A stretch of DNA of 64,000 bases from Aeromicrobium sp. Root344 (GTDB lineage: Bacteria; Actinomycetota; Actinomycetes; Propionibacteriales; Nocardioidaceae), in contig NZ_LMDH01000001.1 of NCBI RefSeq assembly GCF_001425755.1, forward strand, positions 1,028,474 to 1,092,473, in the 5' to 3' direction. The notes beneath the pieces were generated by a model that saw nothing but the letters and a program-made list of their open reading frames with translations, was not told where the DNA came from and searched no databases. A program made the translations under genes and the position numbers. This document shows, one piece after another, positions 57,620 to 62,857 of the stretch; within the stretch, counting starts at the first letter, position 1, and every line of letters starts with the position of its first letter.

Positions 57620-58285
57620 TCAGGCCCGGGCGAGCGCCTTTGCGTCGGCCATGACGCCGGCGACGAAGATGGCGATGCCGTCGGAGTAGTACTCGTCGGT
57701 GTTGGCGCACTCGATCATCGCGTCGGCGGCTGCGCGGAGGCGCGGGTAGCGGTCCTCGGGCAGCGACGTGAGCATCGCCCGTTTGCGGTCGAGCTCCTCC
57801 TGTCGCCGCTCGGGCTTGAACGCGAGCTCCGCGCCCGGCTCCCGGCTGACGAGCGTCATCGCGATCTGCAACGTGTAGTGCGCCACCGCCGCTGAACGCT
57901 CGACGTCGAACCCCGCAATGGAGAGCTTGTCGAGGAACCGCTCGGTCAGGTCACGGCCCACCTCGGCCTGCATGATCTGCTGAGCCACGAGCGGAGACGC
58001 GCTGGGGTGGGCGCGCATGACATCCACGAGCGACGTCATGGCCTCGCGGAGGTAGTCCTCCAGCGGCAGGTCCTCGTCGGGGATCCGGAGGGACGACACC
58101 ACGGCGTCGCCGACGGCGGCGAGCAACGCCTCCTTGTTGGCGAAGTGCCAGTAGAGCGCCATCGGCGTCACGCCGAACGCGTCAGCGACCTTGCGGACAG
58201 TCAGCGCGTCGAGTCCTTCGGCATCGACGATCGCGAGGGCGCGTTCGACGACGAGGGCCGGATTGAGCGAGTTCTTGGGCTTCAC
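57620..58285 (-). CDS. TetR-family regulator (TetR class with C-terminal TetR_C domain)
   Basis: A 221-aa protein. HTH ALTVRKVADAFGVTPMALYWHFANKEALLAAV, and a C-terminal domain with VERSAAVAHYTLQIAMTLVSREPG. GTG 58285 (VKPKNSLNP) is preferred to the upstream TTG; TATAGT lies 8 bases before it. It is divergent from an MFS exporter gene and should repress it, with release by the exported compound. Confidence 0.83.
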   Translation of the reverse strand: MKPKNSLNPALVVERALAIVDAEGLDALTVRKVADAFGVTPMALYWHFANKEALLAAVGDAVVSSLRIPDEDLPLEDYLREAMTSLVDVMRAHPSASPLVAQQIMQAEVGRDLTERFLDKLSIAGFDVERSAAVAHYTLQIAMTLVSREPGAELAFKPERRQEELDRKRAMLTSLPEDRYPRLRAAADAMIECANTDEYYSDGIAIFVAGVMADAKALARA

Positions 58286-58297
58286 AGTTGACAACTA

Positions 58298-58343
58298 TAC
58301 GGCATACATGATTCCTTTACGTCGTACATTTACAACGTAAAGG
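58298..58343. promoter_or_regulatory. TetR/MFS intergenic operator region
   Basis: TACGGCATACAT (58298-58309) and TACGTCGTACAT (58318-58329) are direct repeats exactly 20 bp apart. The second also falls inside an inverted repeat with 9-bp arms CCTTTACGT and ACGTAAAGG (58314-58343) that reaches into the MFS ribosome binding site. AT content is clearly higher than in the surroundings. Confidence 0.5.
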
Positions 58344-58350
58344 AGTGGTC

Positions 58351-59772
58351 ATGAACGACCGCAGGAACATCTGGGCTCTCGTGGCCGTCGCGCTTGCGAC
58401 GTTCATGACATACCTCGACAACAACATCATCAACGTGGCGATCCCGGTCATCGAGCGGGACCTGCACCTGACGACCTCCGGCATGGAATGGATCGTCAGC
58501 TCGTACATCCTCACGTTCGCCGGCCTCATGCTCGTCGGCGGACGACTCGCGGACCTGTTCGGTCGCCGTCGCCTGTTCCTCGTCGGCCTCGGCGTGTTCA
58601 CGCTCGCCTCTCTCGCTGCCGGCCTCTCCGGCGACGTCGGCACGCTGATCGCCAGTCGCGCGGTGCAGGGCGTCGGCGCAGCGCTGCTCACCCCGACGAC
58701 GCTGGCCATCATCTCTGCCACGTTCACCGACAAGCGCGAACGCAACGTCGCGGTCGGCATCTGGGGCGCCGTCGGCGCCCTGGCCCTCGCCGCGGGGCCG
58801 CTGCTCGGCGGCCTGCTGAGCGAGCACGTCGCCTGGGAATGGATCTTCTTCATCAATGTCCCGCTCGGCCTGATCACCGCGGGCATCGCCACGTGGGCGA
58901 TCGACGAGTCCCGCGATCCGGTGACCCGCAAGCTCGACCTGTCGGGACTCCTGGCCTCCACGATCGCGCTCTCGGCCCTGACGTACGCCCTGATCGAGGG
59001 CATCTCCCGCGGGTGGACGTCGACGCCGATCATGGCGGCGTTCGTCGTCGCCGCGGCAGCAGGAGCGGCGTTCGTGTCGATCGAGCGTACGGCGACCGAT
59101 CCCATGGTCGATCTGGCGCTGTTCCGCGACCGGGTGTTCACCGGCGCGATCGTGTCGCTGATGCTGTGGGCGTTCGGGCTGTTCGGGATCTACTTCTTCA
59201 CGTCGCTCTACCTCCAGGGCGTGCTGGGCTTCTCCCCCACGCGCGCCGGCATGACCTTCGTGCCGATGGCGTTGTTCATGGCGGTCGCTGCAGCAACGTC
59301 CGAAGGTGTCGCCCGCCGCTTCGGCGCCCACCGATCGGTGACGTTCGGCATGGCGCTGATGGGCACCGCGATCGCCTCGCTGGCGCTCCTTGGAGCCGAT
59401 GCCGGAGCGATGGACCTGATGCCGAGCTTCATCGCGATCGGCATCGGTGGCGGTCTGACCATCCCGTTGACGGCGACGGTCCTCGGCGTCATGCCTGCGG
59501 ACCAGGCCGGTGTCGCCTCGGGCGTGTTCAACACGTCGAGAGAGCTCGCGGGCCTGCTGGGCATCACGGTCATCGGCGTCATCCTGAGCAGCCGCGAGGA
59601 CTCGCTCATCGCCTCGGGGCACACGCCGGTCGACGCGTACCTGGGCGGCTACCGCTTCGGTCTGGTCATCGCCGGGCTCCTCGTCGTCGCCGGCGCGGTC
59701 GCAGCATGGGCGGCACTCCGCAAGGCCGAGGACGAGCCGGTGCTCAACGAGGACGTGCTCGTCGGCGTCTGA
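58351..59772 (+). CDS. MFS drug-efflux transporter, DHA2 family (14 helices)
   Basis: A 473-aa exporter. TYLDNNIINVAIPVIERDL, GGRLADLFGRRRLFLVG (motif A) and SRAVQGVGAALLTPTTLAI (motif C-like) are DHA2 hallmarks. ATG has AAAGGAG 6 nt upstream; a GTG six bases earlier is less well placed. Divergent from its probable TetR repressor. Followed by a strong terminator. Confidence 0.87.
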   Translation: MNDRRNIWALVAVALATFMTYLDNNIINVAIPVIERDLHLTTSGMEWIVSSYILTFAGLMLVGGRLADLFGRRRLFLVGLGVFTLASLAAGLSGDVGTLIASRAVQGVGAALLTPTTLAIISATFTDKRERNVAVGIWGAVGALALAAGPLLGGLLSEHVAWEWIFFINVPLGLITAGIATWAIDESRDPVTRKLDLSGLLASTIALSALTYALIEGISRGWTSTPIMAAFVVAAAAGAAFVSIERTATDPMVDLALFRDRVFTGAIVSLMLWAFGLFGIYFFTSLYLQGVLGFSPTRAGMTFVPMALFMAVAAATSEGVARRFGAHRSVTFGMALMGTAIASLALLGADAGAMDLMPSFIAIGIGGGLTIPLTATVLGVMPADQAGVASGVFNTSRELAGLLGITVIGVILSSREDSLIASGHTPVDAYLGGYRFGLVIAGLLVVAGAVAAWAALRKAEDEPVLNEDVLVGV

Positions 59773-59822: not shown

Positions 59823-59838
59823 GCTCGGAGCATGAAAG

Positions 59839-59926
59839 GACCCCTCGCGCACCCGACAGAGCTCACTGACCCTTGCTGCCTTCCGGCCCTGGGGGAGTTG
59901 GGTGATGTGTCGCCGCGCGAGGGGCT
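59839..59926 (-). ncRNA. ffs: Small signal recognition particle RNA (4.5S-like)
   Basis: On the minus strand the conserved apical domain reads CAGGGCCGGAAGGCAGCAAG, the Ffh-binding tetraloop and asymmetric loop of bacterial SRP RNA. The ends pair through GCGCGAGGGG (59915-59924) and CCCCTCGCGC (59841-59850). TATGAT (complement of 59934-59939) is a -10 box seven bases upstream of the predicted 5' end. Length about 88 nt. Confidence 0.9.
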
Positions 59927-60021
59927 GTCGTCCATCATACGGAGCGCCCGCGTACGCCCTCAAGTCGGGCGCGGCCGTACCGATTCGTCGGCAACCATGC
60001 CGGACCGGTAACCTCGTCCGC

Positions 60022-60106
60022 GGAGGATTCGCATAGTGGCCTAGTGCGCTCGCTTGGAAAGCGGGTTGAGTGAAAGCTCTCAGGGGTTCGAATCCCCTAT
60101 CCTCCG
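60022..60106 (+). tRNA. tRNA-Ser (GGA)
   Basis: An 85-nt tRNA with a long variable arm. Acceptor GGAGGAT pairs with ATCCTCC, the anticodon loop CTTGGAAAG gives GGA, and the T-arm is GGGTTCGAATCC-like. CCA is not encoded (GCCG follows). Confidence 0.95.
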
Positions 60107-60110
60107 CCGA

Positions 60111-60152: not shown

Positions 60153-60259
60153 CTGGTCGCCTTACGAGCTGACCCGGCGGAGGCTTGCCTCCGTCCCTGA
60201 GCTGCCGCCGCACCCCCGGGCCTCTGGCATCTCGCGCCGATATCCGACAGGCTGACGAC

Positions 60260-60607
60260 ATGACCCAGTACCTGCTTGCCGTGCACTCCAGCGCCGACGA
60301 CTACGACCGCTCCTTCGAGGAGATGCAGCCCGTCTTCGAGACCGTCGACCGGTTCAACCAGAAGCTCGTCGCCGACGGCATCTGGGTCTTCGGTGGCGGC
60401 CTCGAACGCATCGAGGCGGCGACGACGGTCGACGGCACCAACGGCCAGACGCTCGTCATCGACGGGCCGTACCTCGAGACCAAGGAGTACCTCGGCGGTT
60501 TCTGGGTCATCGAGGCGCCCGATCTCGAGACCGCCCATCGCATCGCCCTCGAGGCTTCCGAGGCGTGCGGCGGCAAGGTCGAGGTGCGCCCGTTCCAGGC
60601 GGAGTGA
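60260..60607 (+). CDS. YciI/DGPF-domain protein 1
   Basis: A 115-aa protein of the YCII-related (DGPF) family. MTQYLLAVHSSADDYDRSF, the FGGGLERIEAATTV segment and VIDGPYLETKEYLGGFWVIE contain the DGP[FY] signature. DGPF proteins accompany ECF42 sigma factors in actinobacteria and are of unknown function, probably enzymatic or scaffold proteins. About 80% similar to the next gene. ATG follows AGGCTGACGAC; no copy of the shared ECF42-type promoter is seen upstream. Confidence 0.85.
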   Translation: MTQYLLAVHSSADDYDRSFEEMQPVFETVDRFNQKLVADGIWVFGGGLERIEAATTVDGTNGQTLVIDGPYLETKEYLGGFWVIEAPDLETAHRIALEASEACGGKVEVRPFQAE

Positions 60608-60623: not shown

Positions 60624-60652
60624 TGTCGTATCCGAGCTGCCCCGTTCGTGGA
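60624..60652 (+). promoter_or_regulatory. ECF42-type promoter, copy A (DGPF2-sigma operon)
   Basis: TGTCGTATC (60624-60632), 9 bp, then CCGTTCGTGGA (60642-60652), lying 47 bp before the DGPF2 start. The same two blocks with the same spacing recur at 62315-62343, so it is very likely the promoter recognised by the sigma factor encoded in this operon. Confidence 0.7.
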
Positions 60653-60698
60653 GAGGGTAGAGGCGGTCGACCGGCCACCATCGACGAAGGGAAAGACC

Positions 60699-61046
60699 AT
60701 GACTCAGTACCTGCTTTCGGTGCACGGACCCTCCGAGGTCTGGGACACACCGCTCGAGGAAGCCCAGCCGATGTACGAGGCGACCGACCGGTTCAACGAC
60801 AAGCTCCGCAAGAGCGATGCGTGGGTCTTCGTCGGCGGCCTGGAACGACCCGAGACCGCCACGACGGTCGACGGCACCGGCAACGACGTCATCGTCACCG
60901 ATGGCCCGTACGCCGAGACCAAGGAGTACCTCGGTGGCTTCTGGGTCATCGAGGCGCCCGACCTCGACGCCGCGCTCAAGATCGCCTCCGAGGCGTCCAA
61001 GGCCTGCGGCGGCAAGGTCGAGGTCCGACCGTTCGCAGGCGAGTGA
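60699..61046 (+). CDS. YciI/DGPF-domain protein 2
   Basis: A 115-aa paralogue of the previous protein (MTQYLLSVHGPSEVWDTPLE, VTDGPYAETKEYLGGFWVIE). GAAGGGAAAG lies 4-5 nt before the ATG. Its stop overlaps the GTG of the sigma factor gene, so both are made from one mRNA. Tandem DGPF genes before an ECF42 gene are a known arrangement; their role in signalling is not understood. Confidence 0.87.
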   Translation: MTQYLLSVHGPSEVWDTPLEEAQPMYEATDRFNDKLRKSDAWVFVGGLERPETATTVDGTGNDVIVTDGPYAETKEYLGGFWVIEAPDLDAALKIASEASKACGGKVEVRPFAGE

Positions 61047-62290
61047 CCCAGAGCTCGGACCTGCGCGCGGAGATCGACCGGATCTACCGCGAGGAGTACG
61101 GCCGGGTGGTCGCTTCGCTCGCCCGTCGATTCGGCGATCTCGACATCGCCGAGGACGCGGCGGCCGAGGCGTTGGTCAAGGCGGTCGAACGCTGGCCAGA
61201 TGACGGCATCCCACCCAACCCGGGCGGCTGGCTGACCACGACTGCAGCCAACGGCGCCATCGACCGTATCCGCCGCGAGTCCCTGCGTGACACCAAGCAC
61301 CAGGCGGCCATGATGATCACCGACGACACCCCCCACGAACCGACCGGACCGGTCGAGGACGACCGGCTCCGGCTGGTCTTCACCTGCTGCCACCCGGCCC
61401 TCGCTCCCGAGGCCCGCGTGGCGCTGACCCTGCGCCTGCTCGGCGGCCTCACGGTCGAGGAGATCGCCCGCGCGTTCCTCGTGGCCGAGACGACGATGGC
61501 GCAGCGCATCACCCGCGCCAAGGCCAAGATCAAGGCCGCGCACATCCCCTATCGCGTGCCGGAGCGCGACGACGTGACCGATCGCCTCGGCGCTGTGCTC
61601 GCAGTCATCTACCTCGTGTTCAACGAGGGCTACCTGTCGAGCGCCGGCGACGATCCCGTGCGCACCGAGCTGACGGCCGAAGCGATTCGCCTGGGCCGCA
61701 TCCTCCGGCAGCTCCTGCCCGAGGAGGGCGAGGTGGCCGGCCTGCTCGCCCTGATGCTGCTCAGCGAGGCGCGGCGCACCGCCCGGTTCGCCGGTGGGGA
61801 GCTCGTGACGCTCGACGAGCAGGACCGCAGCGGCTGGGACCGCACCCTCATCGCCGAGGGCCATGCGCTCGTGCGCGAGTGCCTCGCTCGCGTCGCGTCG
61901 GGCTCGGCGGCTCCTGGCGCGTACCAGATCATGGCCGCGATCAACGCGGTCCACACCGACACCCAGGATCACCGCGACACCGACTGGTCGCAGATCGTGG
62001 CGCTGTACGACCAGCTGTACGCCGTCAGCCCCACGCCGATCATCGCGCTCAACCGTGCCGTCGCCGTCGCCGAGCTCGACGGGCCCGACGTCGCCCTGGC
62101 GATCGTCGACTCGCTCGACCTCAGCGGCTATCACGCCTGGCACGCCGCCCGCGCCGACCTGCTGCGAAGGCTGGGGCGCAGTGCCGAGGCGCGAACGGAG
62201 TACGACGCCGCGATCGCCGCGACGCAGAACCCGGCCGAGACGGCCTACCTGTCCCGCCGCCGCGCGCACCTGGTCGATCCGAACGCCTGA
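61043..62290 (+). CDS. ECF42-type RNA polymerase sigma factor with long C-terminal extension
   Basis: A 415-aa protein. Sigma region 2 (YREEYGRVVASLARRFGDLDIAEDAAAEALVKAVERWP), region 4 (LTLRLLGGLTVEEIARAFLVAETTMAQRITRAKAKI), then about 230 aa of helical TPR-like sequence (GYHAWHAARADLLRRLGRSAEARTEY). Such an extension and linkage with DGPF genes are typical of ECF42, which has no anti-sigma factor; the extension is thought to control activity. GTG start overlaps the DGPF2 stop (GTGA). Confidence 0.87.
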   Translation: MTQSSDLRAEIDRIYREEYGRVVASLARRFGDLDIAEDAAAEALVKAVERWPDDGIPPNPGGWLTTTAANGAIDRIRRESLRDTKHQAAMMITDDTPHEPTGPVEDDRLRLVFTCCHPALAPEARVALTLRLLGGLTVEEIARAFLVAETTMAQRITRAKAKIKAAHIPYRVPERDDVTDRLGAVLAVIYLVFNEGYLSSAGDDPVRTELTAEAIRLGRILRQLLPEEGEVAGLLALMLLSEARRTARFAGGELVTLDEQDRSGWDRTLIAEGHALVRECLARVASGSAAPGAYQIMAAINAVHTDTQDHRDTDWSQIVALYDQLYAVSPTPIIALNRAVAVAELDGPDVALAIVDSLDLSGYHAWHAARADLLRRLGRSAEARTEYDAAIAATQNPAETAYLSRRRAHLVDPNA

Positions 62291-62314
62291 GGACGAAGAA
62301 AGTTCTCTCCGACC

Positions 62315-62343
62315 TGTCGTATCGGCCGAGCACCGTTCGTGGA
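62315..62343 (+). promoter_or_regulatory. ECF42-type promoter, copy B (DUF6069 gene)
   Basis: TGTCGTATC (62315-62323), 9 bp, CCGTTCGTGGA (62333-62343), 47-48 bp before the start of the downstream gene, identical in blocks and spacing to copy A. Confidence 0.7.
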
Positions 62344-62390
62344 ACTGGTGAGAGGCAGCAACGGGCTGCTTCACCAGCCAGGAGCTCGAC

Positions 62391-62819
62391 ATGACCATCA
62401 CCACCGCTTCCACCGTCCGCACCACCGCCTCGACCACCACACCCATCTGGCGTCCCGCCGCCGCAGCCGGCGTCACGGCAGCCGCCGTCACGGCAGCGGT
62501 CGCGGCCGTCGCCCACGCCGCCGGCGTGTCGCTGACCCTCGACGGCGAACCGATCCCGCCGTCGGGGTTCGCAGTCATGACGCTGGTGTGCACCGCCATC
62601 GGCTTCGGGATCGCGGTCGCGCTGCGCCGCTGGGCCCGGCGCCCGCAGCGTACGTTCGTCCGGACGTCAATCGCGCTGACCGCGCTGTCGTTCCTCCCCG
62701 ACCTGCTGGTCCCCGCGGCTTCGGCCGACACCCGGGTCACTCTGATGGCAACGCATGTCGTGGCCGCGGCGATCGTCATCCCCGTGATCGCCGCGCGACT
62801 CGGCCAGTCGCATCGCTGA
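62391..62819 (+). CDS. DUF6069-type four-helix membrane protein
   Basis: A 142-aa protein with an alanine/threonine-rich N-terminus and four membrane helices (AAAAGVTAAAVTAAVAAVAHA, SGFAVMTLVCTAIGFGIAVAL, SIALTALSFLPDLLVP, MATHVVAAAIVIPVIAARL). CAGGAG lies 6 nt before the ATG. It has its own copy of the sigma-factor promoter, so it is a probable direct target of the ECF42-type factor. Molecular role unknown. Confidence 0.75.
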   Translation: MTITTASTVRTTASTTTPIWRPAAAAGVTAAAVTAAVAAVAHAAGVSLTLDGEPIPPSGFAVMTLVCTAIGFGIAVALRRWARRPQRTFVRTSIALTALSFLPDLLVPAASADTRVTLMATHVVAAAIVIPVIAARLGQSHR

Positions 62820-62831
62820 CTGCGTACGAGG

Positions 62832-62857
62832 CCCGGAACCCGATCACGGGTTCCGGG
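62832..62857. terminator. Terminator between convergent genes
   Basis: Perfect 11-bp arms CCCGGAACCCG and CGGGTTCCGGG with a 4-nt loop, followed by TTCTCGTCGTT on the plus strand. Confidence 0.8.

Follow-up and report, generated by a model that had tools for sequence, protein, structure and literature searches.

Predicted ECF42-type promoters, a candidate regulon and a possible leader hairpin around a DGPF-linked sigma factor of Aeromicrobium

ECF42 sigma factors are already known, as are the DGPF proteins that accompany them and a promoter of the TGTCG/CGT type; these factors are widespread and little understood as to signal and purpose. RpoE10 of S. meliloti, like the factor described here, is a TPR-bearing ECF42 encoded beside a YCII gene, with mapped promoters that read TGTCGG-N17-CGTC (PMC6180224; spacing counted in this analysis). 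The targets named in the consulted part of that study include a hydrophobic-ligand domain, which we read as possibly SRPBCC-like, and glyoxylase-like domains; in contrast to the set presented below, no RibD_C, FAD monooxygenase, exporter or DUF6069 targets are named there. Sven_0747, Sven_4377 and Sven_7131 of Streptomyces venezuelae are, like ours, actinobacterial ECF42 factors with a YCII neighbour and a TPR extension, which is essential there (PMC8999054, PMC9023288). P. putida ECF-10, an ECF42 linked to antibiotic and oxidative stress, is proteobacterial, unlike the present one (PMC8999054, PMC6180224). According to a proposal made in reviews, ECF42 factors are controlled through a protein that contacts the extension, with participation of the YCII protein (PMC8999054, PMC9023288). 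Neither the target set nor the leader hairpin reported below is described in the consulted parts of the ECF42 literature examined (PMC6180224, PMC8999054, PMC8103513, PMC7730460, PMC9023288 and PMC10880074), the S. venezuelae primary studies aside.

We analyzed a window of 64,000 nt (C1:1028474-1092473) from the genome of Aeromicrobium sp. Root344, which forms a single contig of 3.87 Mb. The features of the locus and the candidate targets elsewhere in the genome are collected in Table 1. The GTG start of the sigma gene overlaps the end of DGPF2, whereas DGPF1 lies upstream of promoter 1, without the ECF42 motif. A block of ~39 nt (60221-60259) that abuts the DGPF1 ATG is near-identical in an alignment of four species and unlike an ECF42 promoter; it may be another kind of promoter or regulatory site. 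Immediately preceding the DGPF cluster are a small SRP RNA gene (59833-59929, - strand) and a tRNA-Ser(GGA) gene (60022-60108, + strand), and just upstream a divergent pair of TetR regulator and MFS exporter genes (57620-59772) makes up an ordinary efflux unit without the motif.

Table 1. Features of the sigma locus (window positions) and candidate distant targets (contig positions, prefixed C1)
Feature	Position	Strand	Remarks
DGPF1	60260..60607	+	YCII family, tandem paralogue of DGPF2; Pfam PF03795
ECF42-type promoter 1 (predicted)	60624-60652	+	TGTCGTATC CGAGCTGCC CCGTTCGTGGA; -35 TGTCGT, 17 bp, -10 CGTGGA
Predicted transcription start 1 (A)	60659	+	Spacing of mapped S. meliloti RpoE10 promoters, all-purine column 35
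Predicted 5' leader hairpin, DGPF2-sigma transcript	60660..60682	+	One C-A mismatch in this copy
DGPF2	60699..61046	+	YCII family, first gene of sigma operon; PF03795
ECF42-type sigma factor	61043..62290	+	415 aa, GTG start; sigma2, sigma4_2, DUF6596, TPR-like C-terminus
ECF42-type promoter 2 (predicted)	62315-62343	+	TGTCGTATC GGCCGAGCA CCGTTCGTGGA
Predicted transcription start 2 (G)	62350	+	Same basis as start 1
Predicted 5' leader hairpin, DUF6069 transcript	62352..62372	+	Predicted fold
DUF6069 protein	62391..62819	+	142 aa; PF19545
Probable terminator	62832..62857	+	11-bp inverted repeat, perfect and GC-rich, behind DUF6069; by eye
FAD_binding_3 monooxygenase, candidate target	C1:3237085	-	Profile match over cut-off
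RibD_C (DHFR-like) reductase, candidate target	C1:3245549	+	Profile match over cut-off
RibD_C (DHFR-like) reductase, candidate target	C1:3368934	+	Profile match over cut-off
DHA2/EmrB (MFS) exporter, candidate target	C1:3536833	-	EmrB model 269 vs cut-off 230.2 bits

The sigma factor shows features of the ECF42 group. Its sigma regions are those of the ECF type, sigma2 and sigma4 only (PF04542 and PF08281, both over cut-off; TIGR02937, 49.3 vs 42.9 bits). DUF6596 occupies residues 181-279 in the Pfam search, and helices continue to residue 411, giving a C-terminal extension of ~200 residues. The AlphaFold model has a mean pLDDT of 79, with blocks of 35-49 in the sigma2-sigma4 linker. The best Foldseek matches of the C-terminal helical array are TPR proteins (2pl2: probability 1.00, TM by target 0.68, E 4e-3); the Pfam search of the sigma factor listed no TPR. 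This TPR-like array fits the proposal of the reviews that protein contact acts on the extension, and DGPF1 and DGPF2 supply the YCII neighbours. Among the seven proteins scanned around the sigma factor, none was an anti-sigma factor, and the putative membrane neighbour, DUF6069, is absent beside about half of the orthologues.

Two motif copies with identical blocks and spacing and a differing 9-bp spacer, 47 and 47-48 bp before their genes, were reported in the first-pass annotation. Both copies of TGTCGTATC-N9-CCGTTCGTGGA are exact (0 mismatches each), their nine spacer bases differ, and the distances from the last motif base to the ATG are 47 bases for DGPF2 and 48 for DUF6069. When ≤3 mismatches are allowed, the window holds the same number of matches, 2, against 0.87 expected from shuffles, and at least two matches occur in 22/100 shuffles. 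Near-identical blocks 1.7 kb apart might be a recent short duplication carried without function, a reading to which we give practically no weight: the spacers and flanks differ, the same blocks stand at distant, unrelated genes, and six species have retained each copy separately, a conservation that contradicts it.

The layout of the RpoE10 promoters assigns TGTCGT as the -35 and CGTGGA as the -10 element; the TGTCGn-N17-CGT arrangement found here is that of the mapped promoters in the consulted part of PMC6180224. A logo of 40 sites, six of which have 2 mismatches and are followed by a gene, showed that the conserved core is TGTCGTAT-N10-CCGTTCGTGGA, with a variable C at position 8. The first-pass assignment to an ECF42 sigma factor agrees with the protein domains, the DGPF/YCII neighbours, the mapped-promoter layout and the co-occurrence in the genus described below, and the conserved core had to be amended. 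In the logo, TGTCGTAT spans positions 0-7, CCGTTCGTGGA 18-28 and GGT 32-34, only purines occur at 35, and an A-rich and then T-rich, UP-like stretch lies at -18 to -11 before the -35 element. Four sites that lack a plausible downstream gene (G007, G013 C1:1257980, G021 C2:163672 and G029) were excluded from the logo and from the leader sets. The start base of the SMc01149 promoter is marked at position 35, and the SMb20475 promoter sequence also ends there (PMC6180224, as far as consulted). From the RpoE10 spacing and the all-purine column 35, we placed the predicted transcription starts 35 nt past the first -35 base.

Promoter 2 begins 24 nt past the sigma stop codon, and the terminator scanner flagged nothing between the sigma gene and DUF6069. 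We therefore read it as an internal promoter; DUF6069 has a promoter of its own, as first proposed, and is not a fully separate unit. The inverted repeat after DUF6069 was not flagged by the scanner either, which requires a longer T run.

A scan of the genome for the motif, proposed in the first-pass annotation, yielded six near-perfect sites. TGTCGT-N12-CCGTTCGTGGA matches exactly at 4 sites and with 1 mismatch at 2 more; no site has 2 mismatches and 10 have 3. The reversed control pattern gives 3+3 sites at ≤3 mismatches. The gap between ≤1 and 3 mismatches sets the six best sites clear of background. All six are in the right orientation, 37-74 nt upstream of a start codon. The chance of six such placements is ~2e-10, given that ~2.5% of the genome is so placed, a figure that assumes one gene per kilobase and a 50-nt zone. 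One of the ten sites at 3 mismatches (C1:3733396) is a promoter-like site before the DGPF gene of another ECF42. Two promoters had been taken to define the regulon, which was too narrow: both probably belong to it, and the six sites mostly precede reductase, oxygenase and exporter genes (Table 1). The FAD monooxygenase was also considered as a tetracycline destructase (NF033476) and rejected, because its 270.5 bits fall far below the cut-off of 550 and mark it as a distant relative only. Judging by the names of the gene families, the regulon may serve detoxification, by modifying a small toxic compound chemically and exporting it, a role to which we give slightly better than even odds.

The genome encodes five ECF42 sigma factors, and the DGPF genes of the other four are each preceded by a promoter variant that keeps the layout: TGTCGA..CGTATA, TGTCGG-N18-CGTCGT and TGTCGA..CGACGT, found by pattern, and TGTCCG..CGTCCC, found by eye. 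For ECF42 factors of S. venezuelae, a motif resembling TGTCGA with CGA or CGT has reportedly been described. The presence of five such factors with promoters of one layout raises the question of whether the six sites are read by several of the paralogues, or mainly by another one. An MFS exporter gene at C1:1438046 (+ strand), which carries an ECF42-type promoter of another flavour and of mixed type, would be compatible with such sharing; another ECF42 of the genome may control this exporter. We consider both possibilities improbable, since the paralogue promoters differ in the sixth -35 base or in the bases after the CGT of the -10 element, and the T/GGA form follows the orthologue of this sigma factor across the genus. 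The sixth -35 base also tracks the sigma tree, on which it needs 7 changes vs 40.9 when shuffled, and base T only 2, on a tree whose bootstrap is not settled (87 rows after near-copy removal, from 176 regions and 102 with a usable sigma sequence). The variants suggest that the paralogues may run insulated parallel circuits. Sigma residues 153 and 157 predict the sixth -35 base in 82/87 rows; we do not claim them as a recognition code because, with just 7 changes of the trait on the tree, shared descent may explain the match.

Assignment of the sites to this sigma factor is also consistent with their distribution in the genus. Among 49 genomes, TGTCGT-N12-CCGTTCGTGG at ≤1 mismatch gave 38 sites in 11 genomes, compared with 1 site for the reversed pattern. 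The sigma orthologue (≥75% identity) is present in 12/49 genomes; 8 of these 12 hold 34/38 sites, one of these sites (G013 C1:1257980) without a gene call behind, and the other 4 sites are spread over 3 of the 37 remaining genomes (Fisher p 1.4e-4). G021, which is among these three, encodes a relative of the sigma factor at 66%, and one of its two sites precedes a DGPF gene. In the four remaining orthologue genomes, TGTCGTATCCG..CCGTTCGATGAC stands at the same place before DGPF2-sigma, with no site at ≤1 mismatch. These orthologue loci (L104, L105, L106 and L107) share a changed -10 element, CGTTCGATGAC, but keep the -35, and their promoter preference may have shifted in concert.

The placement of the motif and DUF6069 recurs in five other species of the genus, and in the six species, this one included, the DUF6069 promoter keeps a fixed distance of 48 nt while its spacer drifts. 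DUF6069 lies beside the sigma gene in 6/12 orthologue loci, a count in which one locus ends at a contig edge (G035) and another offers 662 nt (G037). As a member of the candidate set it is recurrent and optional. In G021, DUF6069 is located elsewhere and is preceded by TGTCGTATC..GTGTTCGTCGT (by eye). Among 22 DUF6069 genes of the genus over cut-off, 15 have no such promoter in the 200 nt upstream, as judged by eye. The changed -10 in 4/12 orthologue genomes and the presence of DUF6069 beside only half of the orthologues count against the regulon reading. Weighing the evidence together, we think it very likely that both sequences in the window are ECF42-type promoters of the regulon of this sigma factor.

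Across the class, we searched 80 named ECF42 loci for TGTCG-N16-TTCGT and found it in 48, with 50 sites, one of which lies apart from the sigma gene, on the opposite strand; the sixth -35 base is T, G or A. The first gene is RibD_C-like by eye in 15 of the 48 loci, with one (L147) confirmed by Pfam. In Nonomuraea longispora, separate sites precede an SRPBCC-like gene (its Pfam match is below cut-off) and DUF6069, followed by DGPF and the sigma gene. A DNA-only scan of 296 genomes with TGTCG-N16-TTCGT-N6-GGTGAG (exact matches), a pattern itself shaped on these ECF42 loci, returned 83 sites in 60 genomes vs 1 for the reversed pattern. Two are the known sites of the present genome, and we read the other 81, taking as first gene the first tblastn match within 420 nt that reached E 1e-4 or better. 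Seventy-seven precede DGPF (35), RibD_C (32), MFS (4), DUF6069 (4), SRPBCC (1) or HTH_67 (1) genes; four have a different first gene, one of them DGPF-like by eye. The four DUF6069 cases fall into two additional families: three are in genomes of a single genus and one is in a genome of another. The link of the motif to DGPF and DUF6069 genes expected in relatives is therefore there, yet RibD_C is the commoner partner in the class scan. HTH_67 (SCO6745 family) proteins are encoded downstream of ECF42-type promoters in two families of the class, at L060 (G041), confirmed with Pfam and NCBIfam, and at L317 (G186), identified by similarity to L060.

The leaders behind these promoters tend to begin with GAGAGG and to carry an inverted repeat, with a stem mostly from +5 (searched from +3 to +9) and a loop mostly of 4-6. 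For 120 leaders, each <75% alike and reduced from 170, the mean best stem score was 3.47, compared with 0.67 (sd 0.19, maximum 1.125) after dinucleotide shuffling (200 rounds). A stem score of ≥6 was reached by 36/120 leaders vs 13/283 control leaders, which belong to other genes of these loci and are anchored on the start codon and not on the transcription start. When halves of different leaders were joined (three split points, 200 permutations each), the mean dropped to ~1.9 (sd 0.15-0.18, highest 2.44), so that own arms exceeded all permutations, indicating that the arms are matched within each leader. Perfect stems of ≥6 number 36; allowing G-U raises this to 55, and allowing A-C, the mirror control, to 43. 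The non-Watson-Crick stem cells comprise 14 G-U, 4 A-C and 13 others. Leader stems thus keep pairing while their letters change.

Alignment-based tests were less favourable. RNAalifold returned 0 pairs on a MAFFT alignment of 60 leaders (every second of the 120) and 4 pairs without compensation on 17 close leaders. Pairing in these 17 is 87.5% vs 25-68% when the partner is slid, whereas their covariation is not clearly above shuffles (33/500 as high on score and 392/500 on changed pairs), and a partner slid by +3 scores higher on covariation (0.169 vs 0.153). When 81 related leaders were folded singly, z averaged -0.90, and Rfam has no family at either leader of the window. These results, together with the C-A mismatch in the first leader of the window, the score of ≥6 in only 36/120 leaders and the start-codon anchoring of the controls, would suit a by-product of the GC-rich ribosome-site context or a DNA feature instead of an RNA hairpin. 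We regard that as unlikely, if by no means negligible, in view of the excess of the stem score over shuffles and over control leaders, the advantage of own over swapped arms and the predominance of G-U over A-C among the non-Watson-Crick cells. On balance, then, the leaders probably tend to form a real 5' RNA hairpin. An ECF42 leader hairpin is possibly new, a provisional judgement; the literature matches listed for ECF factors and leader hairpins held nothing relevant.

Two conserved blocks at a fixed distance with an inverted repeat behind them might also be the operator of a DNA-binding regulator and not a sigma promoter. This is highly improbable, given that the layout equals that of the ECF42 promoters mapped in the consulted part of PMC6180224, that orientation is constant and the distance to the start codon narrow, and that the leader stems keep pairing through letter changes, unlike an operator. 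Orthologue loci also showed no other regulator gene, a weak point because only DGPF, sigma and DUF6069 genes were sought there. Returning to the promoter reading, we see an even chance that ECF42 factors share a class-wide module made of the -35 and -10 elements, a GGTGAG start region and a compensatorily evolving 5' stem-loop, in which the stem-loop would be an RNA element common to the regulon that sets the lifetime or translation of detoxification messages, with an insulated promoter variant for each of several ECF42s in a cell.

The DUF6069 protein matches its profile well (124.2 vs 27.2 bits cut-off) and is predicted to form a bundle of four long helices (mean pLDDT 80); its hydrophobic sequence points to a membrane location. 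Comparison of the model with the PDB gave no convincing match (best Foldseek E 1.6), and the best Z of 7.0 is within the range common for helical bundles. DUF6069 as a query found no relative on the genome contigs, and the term was not found in the searched literature.

We infer the pairing of sigma factor and promoter and its autoregulation, as well as the signal and the job of DUF6069, and the following scheme is proposed. A signal would reach the sigma factor via its TPR-like C-terminal extension, probably by protein contact, perhaps with a DGPF protein. The released factor would bind core enzyme and transcribe its own DGPF2-sigma operon, a positive feedback, and DUF6069 from the internal promoter. 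It would also turn on four distant genes, for two RibD_C/DHFR-like reductases, the FAD monooxygenase and the EmrB/DHA2 exporter. DUF6069 may act as an accessory membrane protein, the 5' hairpin may stabilise the message or keep the ribosome site open, and DGPF1, motif-free and with its own conserved upstream block, may supply a basal level. Autoregulation is not universal in such systems, since overexpression of RpoE10 did not raise its own DGPF operon in the consulted part of the S. meliloti study (PMC6180224).

For a group of sigma factors whose purpose is little understood, a motif that finds its targets without recourse to the proteins offers a concrete regulon of RibD_C reductases, DGPF proteins, an FAD monooxygenase, exporters and DUF6069, with testable substrates. 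DUF6069 gains a regulatory context from this promoter, and should the leader hairpin be real, control of an ECF sigma regulon would extend to the RNA level.
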